Both the position numbers and the translations under genes were made by a program. Positions 3,757 through 35,343 of a stretch of DNA of 64,000 nt are shown in pieces. The stretch comes from Vagococcus fluvialis bH819 (GTDB lineage: Bacteria > Bacillota > Bacilli > Lactobacillales > Vagococcaceae): NCBI RefSeq assembly GCF_900163795.1, contig NZ_FWFD01000008.1, positions 124,001-188,000 of the forward strand, given 5' to 3'. A model generated the notes under the pieces. That model did no database searches and had not been told where the DNA came from. It worked only from the letters and a program-made list of their open reading frames with translations. Numbering within the stretch: the first letter of the stretch is position 1; each line of letters opens with the position of its first letter.

Positions 3757-4548
3757 TTACTTTCTCAAGACACGAATGCCCAAGCGAACTTTATCTTTTT
3801 TTGTTTTTCCTTGCTCTTCGAGTATTTGGATACGGCCTAATTTTCTAACTGATATAATATCTAGATAATCAACAACATAATCAACTCGTTCTGTTTCTAC
3901 CCAATTAACTTTGACTCTCTTTGATTCTACTATCTGTTTAGCTCTTTGCCTAGATATATTATATACTGTGGAAATAATATTATCAATTCTTAAGGAACTG
4001 ACCGTTAATCCTTCTTCAATCCACTCATTTGTCGGAACAATAAGGTCCGTATAAGTAATTTTTTCAAAACGAACACCAAAGGAACCTATCTTATCTACTT
4101 GATTAACAATATAGTTTGCCATTGTATCTTTAATAAATACTTGCCATCTTGAGCGATCTGTAATAATATCACCAATAAACTCACGCTTTATACCAGTACT
4201 CATCAAAGTGCCTAATATTTTTCCATGACTTAAGGAACCAAACTTCGTAGGGTACTTAATTTCATAAATAGCAATATCATAATCTTCTTGCTGCGGTTCG
4301 TAGTAACTGGGATAAATCACAGCACATTGACGCTCAGAATTTTCAAATCCCCCAAATAGAGAAAATTTGATATCATTTTTTTTGCCAATAAGGCTACTTA
4401 AAATGAAAGCCTCTCTAGGATTTAAAAAATCTGTTACGTAAGGTGCGTATTGATTTTCTACTTGTTCAAACCAACTAATCACATTATCAATAAAAGGATG
4501 TTCGTCCTTGCGAAAATGCTGGTACACATTAGCTAGCAAAAAACTCAC
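3757..4548 (-). CDS. ylmH: YlmH-type S4 RNA-binding protein
   Basis: Member of the YlmH family in the division cluster. Family knowledge: S4-domain protein that binds ribosomal complexes, with a reported role in ribosome-associated quality control. The S4 domain is C-terminal, about residues 185-245 (ISRQRAKQIVESKRVKVN). The N-terminal part matches the YlmH-specific domain (YQHFRKDEHPFIDNV). The start is uncertain: the GTG at 4548 is very close to its AAAGGAT site, and a TTG three codons in or a GTG at codon 8 (NVYQHF) are alternatives. Sits between ylmG and divIVA. Confidence 0.92.
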   Translation of the reverse strand: MSFLLANVYQHFRKDEHPFIDNVISWFEQVENQYAPYVTDFLNPREAFILSSLIGKKNDIKFSLFGGFENSERQCAVIYPSYYEPQQEDYDIAIYEIKYPTKFGSLSHGKILGTLMSTGIKREFIGDIITDRSRWQVFIKDTMANYIVNQVDKIGSFGVRFEKITYTDLIVPTNEWIEEGLTVSSLRIDNIISTVYNISRQRAKQIVESKRVKVNWVETERVDYVVDYLDIISVRKLGRIQILEEQGKTKKDKVRLGIRVLRK

Positions 4549-25416: not shown

Positions 25417-26481
25417 CTATAAAATAATAAGCTCTTTTTCAGAATGTGTCAATCTCTTTATCCCATTATCTGTCACTAACATGTCATCCTCAATCCGAAC
25501 GCCACCAATTCCAGGTAAATAAATTCCTGGCTCATTTGTAATCACATTGCCTGAGACAAAAGCTTTTTCTGCCATTTTTGAAACATTTGGCCCCTCATGA
25601 ATCTCTAATCCAATGCCATGACCTGTAGAATGGCCAAACGCCTCACCATAACCTTTTGATTCAATATAATCACGAGCTACTGCATCTAACTCAGCCCCAG
25701 TCATTCCTGGTTTCGCAACATCTAAAACTTTTTGTTGTGCTTCTTTCACAATTTGATAAATTTCTTTTAATTTTTGATTCGGTTCGCCAAGAGAGATAGT
25801 TCTTGTCATATCTGATACGTATCCTTGATAGTAACAACCAAAATCAATGGTAATAAAATCACCTTGCTCAATTACTTTTTCACTAGCCACTCCGTGAGGC
25901 ATTGCCGATCTCAATCCACTCGCCACTATTGTTTCAAAAGAAACACCAGAAGCACCTAAGTTTCTCATATAAAAATCAAGTTCATTGGCTACTTGAATTT
26001 CTGTCATTCCTGGTTTGATATAAGTTAAAATATGACTAAAAGCTTTATCAGCAATCTCACACGCTTTTTCAATTATTTTAACTTCCGATTCATCTTTGAT
26101 CTCCCTTAATTCTTCAATCATTCCTGAAACAGGGATTAAATCTGCTTCCATAATCATTTCTAATTGAACATATTCTTTAAAGGAAACCAACGCTTCTTCA
26201 AAAGCAAGAGTTTCTAGTTTCTTTTCTTCCACTAAATCTGCCACTACATCAAAAATCGGTCCAAAATTCTGAACAACTTTATAACCTTTACACTGAGTTG
26301 TAGCTTGCTCAGTATATCTAAAATCCGTAATAAAAAATGCTTCTTCTAAGGTAATTAGAGCAATACCCGTTGTCCCTGTAAACCCTGTTAAATAACGTAA
26401 ATTGTATGAACTAGTTATTAAAAATGACCCAATATCTTCTTTGATCATTTCTTTTCTTAAATTATCAACTCTACTAATCAT
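25417..26481 (-). CDS. M24 family Xaa-Pro peptidase
   Basis: Cytoplasmic metallopeptidase that removes residues before proline. Creatinase-like N-terminal domain and a pita-bread domain with all five metal ligands visible: TIDFGCYYQGYVSDMTRT (two Asp), GHSTGHGIGLEIHE (His), TNEPGIYLPG (Glu) and GVRIEDDM (Glu). 354 residues fits PepP/PepQ short forms. In many relatives efp lies between this gene and asp23; here only about 100 noncoding bases separate them. Confidence 0.94.
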   Translation of the reverse strand: MISRVDNLRKEMIKEDIGSFLITSSYNLRYLTGFTGTTGIALITLEEAFFITDFRYTEQATTQCKGYKVVQNFGPIFDVVADLVEEKKLETLAFEEALVSFKEYVQLEMIMEADLIPVSGMIEELREIKDESEVKIIEKACEIADKAFSHILTYIKPGMTEIQVANELDFYMRNLGASGVSFETIVASGLRSAMPHGVASEKVIEQGDFITIDFGCYYQGYVSDMTRTISLGEPNQKLKEIYQIVKEAQQKVLDVAKPGMTGAELDAVARDYIESKGYGEAFGHSTGHGIGLEIHEGPNVSKMAEKAFVSGNVITNEPGIYLPGIGGVRIEDDMLVTDNGIKRLTHSEKELIIL

Positions 26482-26603: not shown

Positions 26604-26624
26604 ATTATTTAGCTACTGGATAGA
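26604..26624. repeat. attL core, 21 bp
   Basis: Identical to 35058-35078. The bases correspond to the rpmA 3' end read on the minus strand (TATCCAGTAGCTAAATAA). Left of it is host DNA with the old rpmA terminator. Confidence 0.88.
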
Positions 26625-26727: not shown

Positions 26728-26750
26728 ATGGCATTCAATATGGCATTCAA
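26728..26750 (+). repeat. Integrase arm-type repeats, left end
   Basis: ATGGCATTCAA at 26728-26738 and again at 26740-26750, start to start 12 bases. The same pair with the same spacing and orientation lies at 34965-34987 beside the other att copy. Probable arm-binding sites for the N-terminal domain of the integrase. Confidence 0.75.
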
Positions 26751-26782
26751 AACGCTACGGGCGAGATGGTGAGTTTATATAG

Positions 26783-26810
26783 AAAAAGAGATGAGAGATC
26801 ATCTCTTTTT
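26783..26810. terminator. Terminator after the deaminase-like gene
   Basis: Perfect 12-bp stem AAAAAGAGATGA with TCATCTCTTTTT and a GAGA loop, 30 bases beyond the stop at 26840. It is T-rich in both directions and also insulates the element from the host side. Confidence 0.85.
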
Positions 26811-26839: not shown

Positions 26840-28135
26840 TCAGTATCTATCTCTATATATAACTATTTTTAATGCTGTTTTATCTAGAGGGCTAGTATCA
26901 ACTTCTTGTCCAGTTCCACTGCATTCTAATAAGGAATCTATGTTACAAATAAAATGTAGATTCTCTTTCATAGTTATACATCTTTTACAAGGTTGAAATT
27001 TAACAAATATATGAGAATCATCATCTTTTATACTAATATTTTCTAACTTCATTGATAGTAATTTTTTTTCACAACATGCAAATAATTTCCCTTTATTACG
27101 TTTATCATCATTTAATAAGATTGCTGCACTATTTGCATTTTCATAATCAGCTAAATTAATGTAATCATTTTCTAAACTACACATATAATAACGAGTCGAC
27201 GTATTTAACTTTACATATTCATACTTATTTATACAATTATCAGTGATTTTTTTAAATATTTTTTCTGCGTCTATTTCCAAATTACGTTTAGCCCCACTAA
27301 TTGATAAGTATGTTTTATCATCATTTTCAATCCTCATAGCCGCAATACATTTTGATTCTAAATTATATTTTAATTTATTTGAATCATTATTTGTTCTAAT
27401 TCTAGATAATTCAGCTACTATCCTTTGAGGTAATGACAAATTATTTCCCGTTATTTCTAAAAGCGACATTTGTTCTTGTAATTCAATTTGATTATTATTA
27501 AAACTCTTGTCCAACTCGATTATCATTTTCTTTACTATTTTTTCATAATGATACTCATCATATGGGAAATTCTTGTTTTTGGCTTGTTGGATGTTTTTAT
27601 CCTCAGAAATTACCATCATAAATGTTTTACTTTTTTTATACCTAATAGTATATTCTTCAGTCTCTATATTAAGTTCTAATTGATTCCCTAATAAATAAAG
27701 ACTTCTAGCAAGCAGATTCATGCGCCATAGCTTTTTTAAAGTTTCATTTTGAAAACCTTTAATTTTATCCATATATTTTTTAATTGTTTTTTTCTCGTAA
27801 AAGAAACTATAATAAATATTAATTTTTTTTAACAGTTCATATCTAGAATTTTCTTCATTAGCGCCAAAAACATCGTTCTTTAATTCATCCCAAATATATT
27901 TCTTTACTAATATAAGATCAGAATATTTCTTATCTAAAATAGAAAAATCACTTTTTTCTCGTTCACTAATTTCTCTTGGCCAACTTTCAGCTAAATAAAA
28001 TGGTACAAAAATATTACCCAAAATATAAAATAGATTGTTTTCTTTAAACTCTTTTTCGTATAAAATAATGCGATCATTTAACTCAGTTTTCAAAATATAT
28101 TTTAACTCTAAGTCTATATCATTATCATTTTCCAT
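26840..28135 (-). CDS. Unknown protein with a C-terminal cytidine-deaminase-like zinc signature
   Basis: I do not recognise the full-length family (431 residues). Residues 1-250 are helical and charged with no known motif. The C-terminal part looks like a CDA-fold deaminase: strand CIAAMRIE (263-270), strand KTYLSISGA (274-282), a helix carrying CCEKKLL with C354 and E356 placed like the Cys/His-x-Glu motif, and strand HIFVKFQPCKRC (375-386) with the PCxxC zinc pair C383/C386. This order matches polymorphic-toxin deaminases (family knowledge). It sits at the cargo end of the element, with an AGAGG Shine-Dalgarno and its own terminator. Role in phage defence or as a toxin is inference; no immunity gene is obvious beside it. 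Confidence 0.7.
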   Translation of the reverse strand: MENDNDIDLELKYILKTELNDRIILYEKEFKENNLFYILGNIFVPFYLAESWPREISEREKSDFSILDKKYSDLILVKKYIWDELKNDVFGANEENSRYELLKKINIYYSFFYEKKTIKKYMDKIKGFQNETLKKLWRMNLLARSLYLLGNQLELNIETEEYTIRYKKSKTFMMVISEDKNIQQAKNKNFPYDEYHYEKIVKKMIIELDKSFNNNQIELQEQMSLLEITGNNLSLPQRIVAELSRIRTNNDSNKLKYNLESKCIAAMRIENDDKTYLSISGAKRNLEIDAEKIFKKITDNCINKYEYVKLNTSTRYYMCSLENDYINLADYENANSAAILLNDDKRNKGKLFACCEKKLLSMKLENISIKDDDSHIFVKFQPCKRCITMKENLHFICNIDSLLECSGTGQEVDTSPLDKTALKIVIYRDRY

Positions 28136-28213
28136 ATTTACCTCTCCCTGTATAACATTTATTAATTAAAATATATCACTTTCCAACACACATTTGATTT
28201 ATTTCTAGTATAC

Positions 28214-28240
28214 CAAAAAAACCCACTAATTAAAGTGAGC
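28214..28240 (-). terminator. Terminator of the element's replication operon
   Basis: On the minus strand CTCACT-TTAAT-AGTGGG followed by seven T. It lies between the 48-residue reading frame and the promoter region of the deaminase-like gene, so the latter is likely transcribed separately. Confidence 0.75.
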
Positions 28241-28249
28241 TTTCAAATG

Positions 28250-28396
28250 CTATCCATTTACTTTACTAGCTAAATCATTAAACGTGAGTGTTTTAACCAT
28301 GCTTAATCCACCAGGGTATCTACCTAAAACGGCTGACTTGTCAGGACTAATATAAGTTTTAAGCTTATTTAATAAGTATTTGACTATCGAGATCAT
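28250..28396 (-). CDS. Small hypothetical protein (48 aa) of the element
   Basis: Reading frame starting ATG at 28396, overlapping the end of the upstream 89-residue gene by 32 bases. The product contains KLKTYISPDKSAVLGRYPGG and ends LTFNDLASKVNG. It looks protein-like and I believe similar peptides occur in phages of Lactobacillales, but I cannot name a family. No clear Shine-Dalgarno is visible, so translation would depend on coupling. Confidence 0.5.
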   Translation of the reverse strand: MISIVKYLLNKLKTYISPDKSAVLGRYPGGLSMVKTLTFNDLASKVNG

Positions 28397-28634
28397 CAAA
28401 TTTAGATATAAAGTCAAGCAGCTTTTGTTTTCGCTGCATTAAACTATCTAATTCAAGCTTTTTTTCTTTAATAATGCCTTCAATTTTCGCACCTTTACTT
28501 TCTTTAGTGATTTTCACTTTAGATAGATCACCACTTACCCAACGCTTTAATTCTGACTCGTAATCATCTATTTCAAATTCTAGGTAATCAATTGCACGTT
28601 GTAACGTTTGGTACTTTGTCAGCCAGTCATACAT
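28365..28634 (-). CDS. Hypothetical coiled-coil protein of the element (89 aa)
   Basis: Unknown function. The start at 28634 is fixed by GGGAGG seven bases upstream (MYDWLTKYQTLQRAIDYLEF); a longer frame exists but lacks a ribosome site. Helical and highly charged, with two heptad-like stretches (residues 8-32 and 50-80). Separated from the upstream xtrA-like gene by a strong hairpin. Confidence 0.75.
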   Translation of the reverse strand: MYDWLTKYQTLQRAIDYLEFEIDDYESELKRWVSGDLSKVKITKESKGAKIEGIIKEKKLELDSLMQRKQKLLDFISKFDDLDSQILIK

Positions 28635-28660
28635 CTTGAAACCTCCCGTGTTATTAAAAA

Positions 28661-28706
28661 GAGAACACAAGCTACTAGCCAAAAATGACTAACAACCTAT
28701 GTCCTC
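28661..28706 (-). terminator. 20-bp wobble-rich hairpin of the element operon
   Basis: In the minus-strand RNA, AGGACAUAGGUUGUUAGUC pairs along its whole length with GGCUAGUAGCUUGUGUUCU around a loop of about six bases, using seven G-U pairs, then a U run. On the plus strand the same positions would be A-C mismatches, so the fold is strand specific. A smaller CACG-AAAG-CGTG hairpin precedes it. Confidence 0.65.
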
Positions 28707-28873: not shown

Positions 28874-29716
28874 TTATTTTTTTAGAGTATATTCGTACTC
28901 TCGTTTATCAGTAATACCGTTAAAATCCATTAACAATAAATTACTTTTTATCCTTGATACAGTTCTCGCATCTAAGATTAGAGATAATTCATCCAAACTT
29001 AGATTACTTGTAAATATCGTTGTCTTGTTCTCTCTTGCGTTGAGAATATTATAAAGGGTATCTACAGTAAAGTTAGATGCCTGCTTGTTAGAGTTCATTG
29101 ATAGCTCACTACCGATATCATCTAGACCTAGAACGTCCGCTTCTACTAATAAATTTAGATAGTCAGCTGAAGTCTTTTGATCAGTGTACTTTTTATTAAA
29201 CGATTCTTTCATTTCAGATAATAACTTCGGCATCGATACAAACAAACATTTCTTTGAATCACCTAGTTCGTTAATGTTCTTTAACATTCCCATCATTAAA
29301 TGAGTTTTTCCAACTCCTGGAGGACCAACCATAAAGACATTTCTATTATTTTTTAAAACTTCTTTAACCACTGTATGAGTATGTTTTTTGATATCACTCT
29401 CAGTATCATTTTTATTGATATAATCTTTAATGCCTTTATTCAGTAATGATCTATCATGTAGAATACTATTATTTTTCAAAAATAACTTTCTTCCTTCTTT
29501 GGTACTTTCAAATTGTTTTTTAGTTGCTTGAGTTGAAAATTTTTTACTCCGTCGCTCACTCTCACATCTTGGACAAATTATTTCATCGTTAAAGTGCCAT
29601 AAATTGTATTTTTCATGTCCTGGAACATTACACGGTTCTTGAAGCTCAATATATCCAGTACGTTCAATGTGGCTATCTGGTACTTTGACGCTTCCCATTT
29701 CCATTGTTTTACTCAT
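28874..29716 (-). CDS. DnaC/DnaI-like helicase loader ATPase
   Basis: AAA+ protein that loads the replicative helicase on element DNA. An N-terminal zinc-ribbon-like part has C29, then CPRC (48-51). Walker A is GPPGVGKTH (131-139) and Walker B is VLGLDDIGSE (about 195-204). TIFTSNLSLDEL is near residue 245 (sensor 1) and an arginine-rich end follows. 280 residues, typical of phage DnaC-like loaders. GGAGG overlaps the stop codon of the upstream gene. Confidence 0.9.
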   Translation of the reverse strand: MSKTMEMGSVKVPDSHIERTGYIELQEPCNVPGHEKYNLWHFNDEIICPRCESERRSKKFSTQATKKQFESTKEGRKLFLKNNSILHDRSLLNKGIKDYINKNDTESDIKKHTHTVVKEVLKNNRNVFMVGPPGVGKTHLMMGMLKNINELGDSKKCLFVSMPKLLSEMKESFNKKYTDQKTSADYLNLLVEADVLGLDDIGSELSMNSNKQASNFTVDTLYNILNARENKTTIFTSNLSLDELSLILDARTVSRIKSNLLLMDFNGITDKREYEYTLKK

Positions 29717-29728
29717 AACGCAAACCTC

Positions 29729-30612
29729 CTAATAAGGTAATTCTGGTAGTTCTGAATCATCATAACTTGGGACTTTTCTTGCTTCAGCAATATTAGCAGC
29801 CCACTCTGGTGGTATTTCTTCCGTTTGGTTTACCTGGTATTGTTTTCTGTTGTTAGTAGTCACGAATTCGTCCATATAAGAACGTTGGTTAAAGAAAGTG
29901 CTACCTTGCTTTATAAACTGTATTTCAGTTCGCTGTAGCTCGATTTGTTTCTTATAAGCATTAATACCATTTAAAATAGTTTCGTCTGTTGTGCCGTCTC
30001 TGATAGCTTTTTGATAGGACTTAAAGGCATTCTCTTTACCTTGCTTTTTAGGATATTCTTTCCAAATTAAATCAAACCTATTTTTTAAATCGACTTTATC
30101 AACTTCTTTGGAAGATGATTGATCTATATTACTCTTCTCTAACTCTATCTCTTAGTCACATCGATGTTACTTTGTAACTCACTAGCGTTACCTTGTAACT
30201 TTTTCTTTTCTCTATGACGTCTAACTCTTTCTGCGCTATAACTTTCAGAGCCAAGCATTTCAGGTATTCTATTAAGATAATATTCGTCATTTTCCACTAC
30301 TTCAATAAGTTGCTTAGTCTCTAAAAAATTGAGCGTCATGGCTACATTTTCTGGTTCTTCATCAATTAACAAAGATATTTCTTCAGCAAAATCGTCACCT
30401 ATAGATTCAAAATAAAGTTTCCCCTCATCTTTAAGACTTGCTAATAACATTTTTAAGTAAATAACTGTATACGTATCACCACCAGCTATTTTTCTTAACA
30501 ATTTAATTTCTTTCTGATCAAAGAAATCCGTTTTTAATTGCAACCAATAATATCTTTTTGCCTTTGTATCATTTTTGAATTCAGCCAACTTAATATTCCA
30601 CCTACTTACCAA
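29729..30612 (-). pseudogene. Replisome organizer, split by a frameshift
   Basis: Phage-type replication initiator. The first part (30145-30612, 155 residues) has the replisome organizer N-terminal domain (YYWLQLKTDFFDQKEIKLLR) and ends in RVRRHREKKKLQ and VTKR-stop. The next frame continues without a start codon as EIELEKSN, then FDLIWKEYPKKQGKENAFKSYQKA and FIKQGSTFFNQRSYMDEF, ending at 29729. Homologues run through in one frame. One missing base near 30146 (AAGGAG to AAGAG) would explain it. It may be a true mutation or a sequencing error; no slippery sequence is visible. Confidence 0.82.
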
Positions 30613-31390: not shown

Positions 31391-31660
31391 TTATTTTTGG
31401 TGTTCTAACATAAATCGATCTAATTCTGATGTTGCATACCACACTGAACCACCTTCAACAGGTTCTGACCTCTTTAACCCTTGTCTCTCATATCGAATTA
31501 AGGTACCTACGGAAATTCCTTTGTAATAATTGGACACATCCTTCTGTTGTATAAAAGGTGGCTTCTGCACTTGTTGCTCTACTAGTTCAATCATTCGTTG
31601 ATAAGTTTCTTGGTGCTGCTTTAGTAATTCTTGTTCGTACTCAATACTAAAAAAATTCAA
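31391..31660 (-). CDS. Excisionase/AlpA-like helix-turn-helix protein (89 aa)
   Basis: N-terminal coiled segment (YEQELLKQHQETYQRMIELV) and a C-terminal MerR-like winged helix (VSVGTLIRYERQGL-type: ISVGTLIRYERQGLKRSEPV, ending ATSELDRFMLEHQK). Such proteins act as excisionases or activators in integrated elements; that role is inference. The start is TTG at 31660, six bases after AAGGAGGTG. An operator-like repeat (31684-31698) lies just upstream. Confidence 0.75.
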   Translation of the reverse strand: MNFFSIEYEQELLKQHQETYQRMIELVEQQVQKPPFIQQKDVSNYYKGISVGTLIRYERQGLKRSEPVEGGSVWYATSELDRFMLEHQK

Positions 31661-31683
31661 ATCAATCACCTCCTTTTCACAAA

Positions 31684-31698
31684 GAAACATTTCCCAAC
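31684..31698 (+). promoter_or_regulatory. Operator copy 1, GAAACATTTCCCAAC
   Basis: Same 15-base sequence as the copy at 31926. It lies between the Cro-like gene and the excisionase-like gene, so it may let the repressor act on the latter. Confidence 0.6.
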
Positions 31699-31700
31699 TT

Positions 31701-31901
31701 TCACCCAAAAAAAAGAAGGTCAATAGTCACGTTAGAATCTACCTGTTTAAATAATTCTTTTAAAAAAATCTTTTCAGAATCTTTAAATGGCACATTACCT
31801 CTTTCTTTTTCTGAATATGCCTGTCTAGAAATATTCAATTTGTTAGCCATGTCGGATTGTTTTAATTTTAACGCTACTCTATAACCAGCTACTCTATTCA
31901 A
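31701..31901 (-). CDS. Cro-like XRE family regulator (66 aa)
   Basis: Compact helix-turn-helix protein: RVALKLKQSDMANKLNISRQ and AYSEKERGNVPFKDSEKIFL cover the whole domain. It is the first gene leftward from the switch region and so takes the Cro position. Start TTG at 31901, six bases after GGAGGTG; the in-frame GTG further up is part of the ribosome site itself. Confidence 0.82.
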   Translation of the reverse strand: MNRVAGYRVALKLKQSDMANKLNISRQAYSEKERGNVPFKDSEKIFLKELFKQVDSNVTIDLLFFG

Positions 31902-31925
31902 ATTTATCACCTCCTACTACCCAAG

Positions 31926-31970: not shown

Positions 31971-31978
31971 GGTGTCAA
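31950..31978 (-). promoter_or_regulatory. Leftward promoter of the early operon
   Basis: Minus strand TTGACA (31973-31978), 17-base spacer, TAGAAT (31950-31955). It shares its spacer with the rightward promoter, so the two should exclude each other. Confidence 0.82.
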
Positions 31979-31993
31979 GAAACATATCCCAAC
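31979..31993 (+). promoter_or_regulatory. Operator copy 3, GAAACATATCCCAAC
   Basis: One mismatch to the other two copies. It begins about 9 bases after the rightward -10, over the transcription start of the repressor gene, suggesting autorepression. Confidence 0.65.
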
Positions 31994-32010
31994 TCAAGGA
32001 GGAATTAATT

Positions 32011-32718
32011 ATGAGCTCTTCTCAAAATAAAGTTGGAGAGAGAATTAAAAATATCAGAATTAGTAAAGGTTTATCTATGGATGATTTTGGGTCTCTTTTT
32101 GATCCACCGGTAACTAAAGGAACAATATCTAAATGGGAAAACGGAAAATATCTTCCTAATAATAACCGAATTAAAAAAATAGCTGAGATAGCTGAGATTT
32201 CTGTTGAAGAATTGCTATATGGAGATATAAGAAATTATCTCAACCCTATCATCATTGAGATAGCAGCAAATCAATACAATATAGATATTAGCGATGATCA
32301 AGAAATGATAGATTATATTTTTGAAGGGTTATACCATGAATCTTATGATAGTGATGAGGAATCACTATATTCTGAGAATAAAGACAGATTGGATGATATA
32401 CTTTTGTATCCTTTCGCTATGGACAGTGAAGGTTTAATACAAACGGCCACTTTAGATTTATTTCATTCAATGAACAAAATAAAAGAGTTAACCGAAAATA
32501 GAAAAGATGATTTATCTAAAAAAGAATATGCAGAATTAACACATACAAAAGACTTAATTACAGAAGTGCTCCAGCAAGCTTATTATGATATTGATGGAAT
32601 GGATGTTGATTCTCATTTCAGCAGTATTGAAAAATATGAAAAAAAACTACAAAAAGAAATAGATAAAAATGCTAATACTGAAATATTAGATCCAAAAATA
32701 CCAAATAATAATAACTAA
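32011..32718 (+). CDS. CI-like XRE family repressor of the element
   Basis: N-terminal helix-turn-helix (VGERIKNIRISKGLSMDDFG, then GTISKWENGKYLPNNNRIKK). The C-terminal 150 residues are acidic and show no S24 peptidase Ser/Lys pair, so induction is probably not by RecA-stimulated self-cleavage (inference). In satellites such repressors are released by a helper-phage protein. AAGGAGG precedes the ATG at 32011; the transcription start near 31977 excludes a longer form. 235 residues. Confidence 0.85.
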   Translation: MSSSQNKVGERIKNIRISKGLSMDDFGSLFDPPVTKGTISKWENGKYLPNNNRIKKIAEIAEISVEELLYGDIRNYLNPIIIEIAANQYNIDISDDQEMIDYIFEGLYHESYDSDEESLYSENKDRLDDILLYPFAMDSEGLIQTATLDLFHSMNKIKELTENRKDDLSKKEYAELTHTKDLITEVLQQAYYDIDGMDVDSHFSSIEKYEKKLQKEIDKNANTEILDPKIPNNNN

Positions 32719-32754: not shown

Positions 32755-33732
32755 ATGAGCAATGACATTATTCTATACAGCACAGAGGACGGACAAACAA
32801 AAGTTGAGTTACACTTACAAGATAGCACCGTATGGCTGTCACAATTGGAACTAGCAGAGTTGTTCGATACCTCCAAAAACAATATTAGTCTACATGTTAA
32901 AAACATATTTGAAGATCAAGAATTGGATAAAAATTCAACTGTTAAGGATTACTTAACAGTTCAAAAAGAAGGTAACAGAGACGTTCAACGGACTATCACA
33001 CTCTACAATTTAGATATGATTCTAGCTATTGGCTACCGTGTTCGTTCTGTTAGAGGTGCCCAATTTAGACGATATGCCTCAACTATCTTAAAAGAATATC
33101 TAATAAGTGGCTTTGCCATTAACGATGATAAAGTAACGCAAGAATTAGATTACTTTAAAAAATTACAAAAGCGTATTAGAGATATTAGAACAAACGAAAG
33201 AATATTCTATAAGCAAGTGTTAGATATTTTTGCTACTAGTATTGATTATGATGGTAGTAGTAAAGCTGCAATGGAATTCTTTGCCACTGTTCAGAATAAA
33301 ATGATTTATGCTGTTACAGGACATACTGCACCAGAGCTAATCTTTAATCGTATCGATGCAGATAAAGAAAACTTAGGTTTGACAGTTCAAAAAGGTGATT
33401 ATCCAACTAAAACAGAATTAAAGGTATCAAAAAATTACCTGGATGAAAAAGAACTAACTGATTTAAACCTTATTGTTTCCGCTTATCTTGATACGGCAGA
33501 AAGACAAGCCAACCAAAAAATAAAAATGACCATGAATGACTGGAAAAGTGAACTAGATCGCTACTTAGATTTCCAAAGAGTTGATATTTTACAAGATAAA
33601 GGAAAAATAAGTAGAGATGCAGCTAATAAAAAAGTAGATGATGAGCTAAAGAAATATAAAGCATTAAATAAAGAAGTCAAACAGGTTGATACTGATTACT
33701 TCAACGCATTAAACAAACTCAATAAAAAATAA
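32755..33732 (+). CDS. RhuM family protein
   Basis: 325 residues. The N-terminal region matches the RhuM family (YSTEDGQTKVELHLQDSTVW, then LSQLELAELFDTSKNNISLH and GYRVRSVRGAQFRRYASTIL). The C-terminal half is helical and charged. The family was named as a virulence protein from Salmonella but is widespread on mobile elements with no agreed function. AGAAAGGAGC precedes the ATG. It lies between repressor and integrase, on the same strand, and may be cargo or part of control. Confidence 0.88.
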   Translation: MSNDIILYSTEDGQTKVELHLQDSTVWLSQLELAELFDTSKNNISLHVKNIFEDQELDKNSTVKDYLTVQKEGNRDVQRTITLYNLDMILAIGYRVRSVRGAQFRRYASTILKEYLISGFAINDDKVTQELDYFKKLQKRIRDIRTNERIFYKQVLDIFATSIDYDGSSKAAMEFFATVQNKMIYAVTGHTAPELIFNRIDADKENLGLTVQKGDYPTKTELKVSKNYLDEKELTDLNLIVSAYLDTAERQANQKIKMTMNDWKSELDRYLDFQRVDILQDKGKISRDAANKKVDDELKKYKALNKEVKQVDTDYFNALNKLNKK

Positions 33733-33788: not shown

Positions 33789-34961
33789 ATGGCAACATTC
33801 AAGCAATACGATAAAAAAGACGGTTCTAAGGCATGGCAATTCCAAGCTTACTTAGGAGTTAACCCGATAACAAACAAGGCGGTAAAGACAACTAGACGAG
33901 GTTTTAAGACAAAAAAAGAAGCCCAACTAGAACTTAATCGTTTACTAGTGGACTTTGAACAAAACGGATTACAAAAAGAAACTATAACAGCCTTTAAAGA
34001 GATTTGTGAGCTTTGGTTGATAACTTATAAGAAAACAGTTAAAGAGACAACCTACATCACGACAGAGCGTTATATGACCAAGTATGTCTTGCCTTCATTC
34101 GGAGATATTAGAGTGGATAAACTTAACTTAAAAACATGCCAGGTAGAAGTTAATAAGTGGGCTGACAAAACGAAAATGTATAAAATAATCTTGCAGTATG
34201 CTTCTAAAGTAATGGAATATGCGATCAGTTTAGAGTTAGCGGACCGCAATCCATTTAGCAGTGTGATAAGACCAACGCCAAAGAAAGTCATAGAACAAGA
34301 CAAGATAAAGTTCTATACGTTAGACGAATTAAAACAGCTGTTTGAGTTCCTGGAGAACAGAATTAAACAAAATGCTAATGGCCAGCTAATGCAAAAATAC
34401 TTTTCTGAATTGGATCTAATTCTTTTTAGGTTCCTAACCTATTCGGGATTACGTGGAGCTGAAGCAAGCGCCTTAGAATGGCAAGATATTAATTTCATTG
34501 ATAAAACTGTGACAGTCAATAAAAATATGTCTCTTACAAAGAACGGTTTCGTTGTCTCCACACCTAAAACTAAGAGCTCATATAGAACGATCACTTTAGA
34601 TGATAAGACGCTTAGACTGCTTAAAAAATGGCAACTAAGACAAAAAGAAATGCTCTTTGCTAATGGTTTAAGAGATAATAACGTTGTCTTTACTAACTTG
34701 TTTGGTGAACGATTCACTAGACAAGATTTATACCAACGTGCTTCCAGGTTATCAAAAGCTGCTGATCTTCATGTCATTGGCGTTCATGGTTTCAGACATA
34801 CCCACGCATCACTTTTATTGGAGAGTGGTGCCAGCATGAAAGAAGCACAAGTTAGATTAGGTCATAGCAGCATCGAAATGACGATGAATATCTATACCCA
34901 CGTTACAAAAGAAGTCACTGAAAAAACCGTTGAGAAGTTAATGAAATTTGCTAATTTGTAG
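33789..34961 (+). CDS. int: Tyrosine recombinase/integrase
   Basis: Site-specific recombinase that integrates the element at rpmA. AP2-like arm-binding N-terminus (KQYDKKDGSKAWQFQAYLGV), a core-binding SAM-like domain (about 65-160), and a catalytic domain with SGLRGAEASALEW (Arg), HGFRHTHASLLLE (His-x-x-Arg), LGHSSIEMTMNIYTHV (His and Tyr). 390 residues. It faces the attR copy 96 bases away, with two arm repeats directly after its stop. Confidence 0.97.
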   Translation: MATFKQYDKKDGSKAWQFQAYLGVNPITNKAVKTTRRGFKTKKEAQLELNRLLVDFEQNGLQKETITAFKEICELWLITYKKTVKETTYITTERYMTKYVLPSFGDIRVDKLNLKTCQVEVNKWADKTKMYKIILQYASKVMEYAISLELADRNPFSSVIRPTPKKVIEQDKIKFYTLDELKQLFEFLENRIKQNANGQLMQKYFSELDLILFRFLTYSGLRGAEASALEWQDINFIDKTVTVNKNMSLTKNGFVVSTPKTKSSYRTITLDDKTLRLLKKWQLRQKEMLFANGLRDNNVVFTNLFGERFTRQDLYQRASRLSKAADLHVIGVHGFRHTHASLLLESGASMKEAQVRLGHSSIEMTMNIYTHVTKEVTEKTVEKLMKFANL

Positions 34962-34964
34962 TCA

Positions 34965-34987
34965 ATGGCATTCAAAATGGCATTCAA
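34965..34987 (+). repeat. Integrase arm-type repeats, right end
   Basis: ATGGCATTCAA at 34965-34975 and 34977-34987, spaced 12 bases like the left pair. They start three bases after the integrase stop codon. Confidence 0.75.
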
Positions 34988-35010
34988 TTTCAATTCAAGA
35001 CAAAATAAAA

Positions 35011-35057: not shown

Positions 35058-35078
35058 ATTATTTAGCTACTGGATAGA
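35058..35078. repeat. attR core, 21 bp, within the rpmA 3' end
   Basis: Identical to 26604-26624 and contains the last codons and stop of rpmA, which therefore keeps its full reading frame after integration. Confidence 0.88.
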
Positions 35079-35343
35079 CAGACACTTGAGTTTTTTCGCG
35101 TCCTTTACGTTCGAAACGTACAACACCTTCAACTTTAGCATACAAAGTATCATCTCCACCACGACCAACGTTTACACCTGGATAAATTTTAGTACCGCGT
35201 TGACGGTATAAAATTGAACCACCTGAAACAGTTTGTCCATCAGCACGTTTAGCACCTAAACGTTTTGATTGTGAATCACGGCCGTTGGTTGTAGAACCGC
35301 CCCCTTTTTTGTGGGCGAATAATTGTAAGTTAATTTTCAACAT
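35059..35343 (-). CDS. rpmA: 50S ribosomal protein L27
   Basis: Ribosomal large subunit protein near the peptidyl transferase centre. The N-terminus [20 protein letters not shown] carries the Firmicutes extension that Prp cuts after the phenylalanine, exposing AHKKG. 94 residues. Its last codons lie inside the att core, so integration left the protein unchanged. Confidence 0.98.

Follow-up and report, generated by a model that had tools for sequence, protein, structure and literature searches.

A PICI-like element of Vagococcus fluvialis carries a candidate zinc-dependent deaminase of a rare and divergent family

The integrated element and its gene content

The window analysed here, a stretch of 64,000 nucleotides from Vagococcus fluvialis bH819, contains an integrated element of 8.5 kb that is bounded by 21-bp direct repeats (att; Table 1). 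Two places for cargo were identified within it: a deaminase-like gene at the 3' end, hereafter the cargo gene, and a RhuM-family gene between the repressor and the integrase. The cargo gene stands outside the block of replication and regulation genes and adjoins an att repeat, at the end of the element opposite the integrase, as described in the initial annotation of this DNA. The RhuM-family gene matches the PADLOC candidate single-gene defence PDC-S05 (E 6e-126) and is possibly a second cargo gene of the element. Furthermore, an imperfect long hairpin with a T tail lies at 28661-28706, 5' of the gene for the 105-aa regulator-like protein, and was scored as terminator-like (20 pairs).

No structural gene, terS or capsid-redirection gene was recognised within the 8.5 kb, and for this reason the element is named only "PICI-like". 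It is phage-satellite-like in its gene content. No relative of its DNA was found in the plasmid and phage collections.

Table 1. Coordinates of the element, its flanks and the cargo gene within the window
Feature	Positions	Strand	Remarks
Xaa-Pro peptidase gene	25417..26481	-	Far flank
att repeat ATTATTTAGCTACTGGATAGA	26604..26624	+	Far end of the element
ATGGCATTCAA repeats	26728..26752	+	Near far att; possible integrase arm sites
Perfect 12-bp inverted repeat	26783..26810		Terminator-like, flanking A and T runs, 3' of cargo gene; read from sequence
Cargo gene (431 aa)	26840..28135	-	Deaminase-like C-terminal domain; stop codon counted in
C-terminal domain, residues 258-431	26843..27364	-	Common to 7/7 family members
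PCKRC, residues 382-386	26978..26992	-	C383 and C386 predicted zinc ligands
CCE, residues 354-356	27068..27076	-	C354 predicted zinc ligand; E356 predicted catalytic
Hairpin-like segment, residues 263-281	27293..27349	-	Invariant C263, A265, Y276, G281
N-terminal region, residues 1-257	27365..28135	-	Predicted all-helical (low-confidence model)
Ribosome-binding site GGGAGAGG	28141..28148	-	Strong, 5' of cargo ATG; read from sequence
105-aa protein gene	28365..28682	-	Match to phage transcriptional regulators (phrog_36)
DnaC-like helicase loader gene	28874..29716	-
Phage replisome organiser N-terminal domain	30145..30612	-	PF09681 E 1e-27
Excisionase or MerR-like regulator gene	31391..31723	-
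Small HTH (Cro-like) gene	31701..31910	-	Sequence; homologue in L109
CI/Stl-like HTH repressor gene	31972..32718	+
RhuM-family gene	32755..33732	+	Second accessory gene, between repressor and integrase
Tyrosine integrase gene	33789..34961	+	Pfam PF00589 E 8e-29
ATGGCATTCAA repeats	34965..34988	+	Possible arm sites near att on the integrase side
att repeat, same 21 bp	35058..35078	+	3' end of rpmA; covers its last codons
rpmA (L27)	35059..35343	-	Host gene with the integrase-side att

Elsewhere in the genus the integration site is mostly empty: of 13 other genomes, 10 have rpmA adjoining the peptidase gene of the far flank. Together with the att repeats, these empty sites confirm and strengthen the satellite-like setting that had been proposed. 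The same rpmA site is occupied in genome G006 by a related element, whose integrase is 98% identical and whose att copies lie at 4212 and 17530 of locus L109; the deaminase-like cargo is absent from it. This related element (L109 4212-17550) is only 13 kb long and carries an HK97-type capsid gene (PF05065) together with tail genes, including tape-measure genes. It may be what remains of a prophage, or else a satellite that forms capsids.

The cargo gene and its expression signals

Translation of the minus-strand open reading frame confirmed the 431-residue product and the reported order of its motifs, with the hairpin-like stretch (263-281) first, CCE (354-356) and KKLL next, and PCKRC (382-386) last. 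When the protein was shuffled at constant composition, [HC]xE...PCxxC arose in 14 of 100,000 permutations, and the pattern occurred in none of 347 ORFs (≥ 150 aa) from 47 unrelated loci. The initial annotation stated that the first 250 residues match nothing known. This held in Pfam, NCBIfam, PADLOC and PHROGs, where no score for this region was convincing, and a counterpart was detectable only in the protein of a congener (L003). The GC content of the gene is 24.7%, compared with 33.6% in the flank.

A terminator belonging to the cargo gene is supported by the perfect inverted repeat on its 3' side. The promoter claimed alongside it is unconfirmed, because a promoter scan of the upstream gap (28136-28240) gave no sigma-70-like site.

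A rare family that shares only its C-terminal domain

Six homologues of the cargo protein were found: one in a congener (L003, locus L091; 387 aa, 28% identity over 369 residues), two in genomes from another family of the same order (L089 and L090, loci L092 and L093), and one each in a human-gut phage record (L005, MT837131.1; 563 aa), an IMG/VR contig (L094) and a Fibrobacter succinogenes MAG (L065). What the seven members have in common is confined to the C-terminal ~170 residues (18-49% identity), and 13 positions there are invariant in 7/7 (C263, A265, Y276, G281, F352, C354, C355, E356, K358, K379, P382, C383 and C386). Conservation of the Cys, the Glu and PCxxC across divergent homologues was a test that the initial annotation had named as able to refute the deaminase reading, and these residues are kept throughout. 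Pairwise comparison of the N-terminal halves found clear relationship only between the cargo protein (P0001) and L003 and between L089 and L090.

The family is rare and sporadically distributed. A profile search detected it in 4 of 395 genomes of the order, and among 399 genomes of the class it was detected in 1, the source genome itself; the libraries searched hold no name for it. Scans for close relatives in viral and genome collections, whether with P0001 alone, L005 alone or three-row alignments, found nothing, and MT837131 was the sole homologue in the plasmid and phage collections. A DNA pattern for CCE...PCxxC retrieved 48 loci from genomes, one of them a homologue (L065). The two loci that it retrieved from the viral collection were both rejected as chance, and two further motif scans of viral contigs added no member.

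At L094 (5249-6608), two ORFs encode the N-terminal part and the deaminase-like domain separately, the first overlapping the second by four bases. This separation suggests that the family proteins consist of two functional modules. The deaminase-like ORF of L094 is itself frameshifted at a run of ten A, through assembly error or slippage. At L065 (558-2858), the deaminase-like domain continues in frame into an ATP-grasp protein of a surface-polysaccharide-type operon, which represents a fusion, a gene insertion or an assembly chimera. The homologues at L092 (9492-10823) and L093 (8339-9652) are nearly identical in their first 30 residues and likewise in their last residues, and both lie near rpsD; one stands beside an integrase and the other is orphaned, and a possible att copy (GKELAR-like) overlaps the 3' end of the gene.

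Evidence bearing on a proposed deaminase-type domain

Zinc-dependent deaminases modify bases, whether in DNA, in RNA or in nucleotides. The invariant residues of the cargo family are set in the order found in these enzymes, namely an alanine and a glycine in the hairpin, CxE, and PCxxC 20-28 residues later (7/7), although the gap from hairpin to CCE (62-82 residues across the family) exceeds that of TadA. A three-row profile of the C-terminal domain was searched against 398 genomes and matched mostly short proteins with HAE...PCxxC. Among the 29 non-self loci read, 22 encode TadA or dCMP-type deaminases, and the similarity of these matches to the domain extends little beyond the motif region. 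In the PDB, the same profile gave only two matches at E ≤ 10, a dCMP deaminase (E 0.12) and TadA-8e (E 1.1), and with a six-row profile the deaminase matches vanished. Alignment of the family with the 22 deaminases by hhalign gave P 0.0012 and a probability of 19% over 17 columns around PCxxC, against P 0.54 for the reversed control. PF00383 (dCMP deaminase) was the only Pfam family matched by more than one member (3/6), with E 0.18 for the cargo protein and 0.0094 for the best member, both below the curated cut-off. Matches to DUF3108_like, KCT2 and YabP fell far below cut-off and were judged to be chance. The deaminase reading of the initial annotation stood in part: distant profile matches are mostly deaminases and the motif residues are invariant, but no library match reaches a curated cut-off.

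Structure prediction was limited by an input alignment of three rows, and two AlphaFold models had a pLDDT of 36-38. The full-length model (pLDDT 38) contains strands at 263-269 and 274-280, a helix at 287-303, a strand at 315-320, a helix at 354-361, a strand at 373-379 and a helix at 384-392. CCE and PCxxC each fall at the start of a helix in this low-confidence model, and the order of elements is that of a deaminase, whose CDA core runs beta-beta-alpha-beta-alpha with the two motifs at helix starts around one zinc; at this pLDDT the agreement is only suggestive. Foldseek (PDB, viral) and VIA searches returned no deaminase among their matches; with query models of such low pLDDT, these searches were taken to be uninformative. 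A weak Foldseek match to MafB2-CT was dropped, as it was not significant and that toxin is an RNase A-fold ribonuclease.

An alternative explanation is a protein without enzymatic activity, in which the Cys and Glu residues make up a zinc site for structure or for nucleic-acid binding; it would then bind DNA or RNA on behalf of the element, for instance as a regulator or anti-repressor. CxxC zinc sites are common, the profile support for a deaminase is weak, and AlphaFold at pLDDT 36-38 gave no deaminase fold. However, invariance is not confined to the cysteines but extends equally to E356 and P382, and A265 and G281 correspond to positions of the deaminase hairpin. In addition, eight ORFs with FxCCE[RS]K were found in viral contigs, and PCxxC follows the motif only in the true homologue. 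A core regulator would fit poorly with the sporadic distribution of the family, which is that of cargo. On balance, a purely zinc-binding factor is considered unlikely. The C-terminal domain is likely to have a deaminase fold, and the cargo protein is probably, if a little less surely, active as a deaminase.

Genomic neighbourhoods and proposed function

Of the six homologues, four come from integrase-bearing, phage or viral settings. The element at L091 has an integrase, a repressor and an excisionase, and its homologue adjoins HEPN-like genes; at L092 the homologue is directly beside an integrase; the L005 phage record contains an integrase and two HEPN-like genes; and L094 is a viral contig. 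HEPN RNases are typical of defence loci. HEPN-like neighbours are present at 2/7 loci, L091 and L005, where four proteins contain R[NS]xxxH, and one such neighbour has a weak PADLOC match to a CARF-HEPN profile. These genes occur as pairs directly 5' of the deaminase-like gene in the two unrelated elements (L091 11197-13308, L005 2290-3751). For the family itself, PADLOC gave no convincing match.

The initial annotation saw no neighbouring immunity gene, and the wider comparison agrees, since neither an immunity or antitoxin gene nor any other neighbour is conserved across the seven loci. Pfam searches of the cargo protein and five homologues found no secretion, RHS, LXG, pretoxin, trafficking or repeat domain. 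There is likewise no sign of an AvcI-like RNA antitoxin upstream of the cargo gene, because this region has no Rfam match and its RNA is not strongly folded (z -1.2). A role against phage, about as likely as not, is inferred from the position of the cargo, from the HEPN-like genes next to two of its homologues, and from the missing parts for secretion or immunity.

In the proposed mechanism, the cargo would be an accessory gene of the PICI-like element and would encode a two-part protein. Its C-terminal ~170 residues would form a zinc-dependent deaminase-type catalytic domain, with the zinc bound by C354, C383 and C386 and with E356 as the proton shuttle. The N-terminal half, which is helical and evolves fast, may keep the enzyme off until it senses a trigger, most simply a product of the infecting phage; a sensor is a role that this half could equally have or lack. 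The released enzyme would then deaminate nucleic acid or free nucleotides, with nucleic acid somewhat favoured as the substrate. Deamination would spoil the replication of the incoming phage, so that the satellite and the host population are spared. Taken as a whole, the gene could well encode a self-contained, probably infection-triggered deaminase effector borne by a satellite, a reading held at middling confidence.

A deaminase might instead serve the mobile element, by acting on nucleotide pools, on the helper phage or on host transcripts in favour of satellite replication or the exclusion of competitors. The carriers are integrase-bearing elements and viral contigs, and other satellites are known to interfere with helper phage (PMC6092414). 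However, the cargo stands next to att and apart from the genes for replication and regulation, is followed by a terminator-like repeat of its own and is missing from the related G006 element at the same att site, and such a service is improbable. It is very unlikely that the cargo is a toxin, whether a deaminase of the polymorphic or secreted kind or one belonging to an addiction module. Some deaminase toxins do combine CxE or HxE with CxxC (PMC3482391), but the domains of secreted toxins, an immunity gene, a conserved neighbour at the seven loci and a sign of an upstream RNA antitoxin (no Rfam match, z -1.2) are all lacking.

Comparison with known systems

The element resembles PICIs in having an integrase, a divergent repressor, an excisionase and replication genes between att repeats, and in lacking structural genes (PMC6092414). 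The two cargo places of this element correspond to those of SaPI accessory genes, which are found at the 3' end or else between int and stl (PMC6092414). PICIs are about 15 kb in size and some have no terS (PMC6092414), whereas this element measures 8.5 kb and a terS or capsid-interference gene was not recognised in it. PICIs are also marked by att sites that prophages do not use; here the rpmA site serves the related 13-kb element of G006 as well, with its capsid and tail genes.

With zinc-dependent deaminases (PF00383; TadA, dCMP deaminase), the cargo family shares the order of hairpin, [HC]xE and PCxxC, the invariant alanine and glycine of the hairpin, and profile matches that are weak but repeated. 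It differs from them in having CCE rather than HAE, in the 62-82 residues between hairpin and CxE, in the long helical N-terminal half of the cargo protein, and in the lack of a match above cut-off.

Polymorphic-toxin deaminases (DddA, SsdA, YwqJ, WD0512-like) are also divergent and associated with conflict (PMC3482391, PMC7901873). Toxin deaminases with [HCD]xE and CxxC have been described, among which the WD0512-like family has CxE (PMC3482391) and, in combining CxE with CxxC, is the same as the cargo family. The chemistry predicted for the cargo would be that of DddA and SsdA (PMC7901873) and of AvcID (PMC10511110). Unlike these toxins, the cargo has no trafficking domains or immunity gene, and it is borne by satellites and prophage-like elements.

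To our knowledge, few anti-phage systems that use deaminases are known. AvcID is a deoxycytidylate deaminase defence in which AvcD is controlled by an RNA antitoxin (PMC10511110). It is comparable to the cargo in its deaminase-type domain and phage-conflict setting, but no RNA antitoxin was seen for the cargo, and no library matched it to a defence deaminase. Each of the deaminase-using anti-phage systems compared here has a partner that restrains the enzyme, and a rare, divergent family standing alone in satellites would add a new mode of control for a base-altering enzyme. Because the invariant residues are those of zinc-dependent deaminases, the cargo may represent an antiviral effector of a new type. 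It is conceivable, though rather doubtful, that the cargo family founds a new branch among nucleic-acid deaminases, comprising single-protein, self-restrained anti-phage effectors with a variable N-terminal sensor and without an immunity partner, spread by satellites and prophages. A family standing alone in satellites would also be relevant to the proposal that antiviral base editors arose in bacteria, and it could yield new deaminases for base editing. With seven sequences and 13 invariant residues, it is defined well enough for direct testing.

OTT_1508-like deaminases carry an HCE motif similar to the CCE of the cargo. The combination of HxE with CxxC is a further likeness, and their role is antiviral. 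The OTT_1508 Pfam model was absent from the matches of six members at E ≤ 5 in single-sequence hmmscan, which a very distant relation may escape. The fungal OLD proteins (OLD-ZAO module) are antiviral deaminases of OTT_1508 type (PMC12754623), and on the doubtful reading of a new branch given above, the cargo family would play in bacteria the part of antiviral base editors like APOBEC3 or these fungal proteins.
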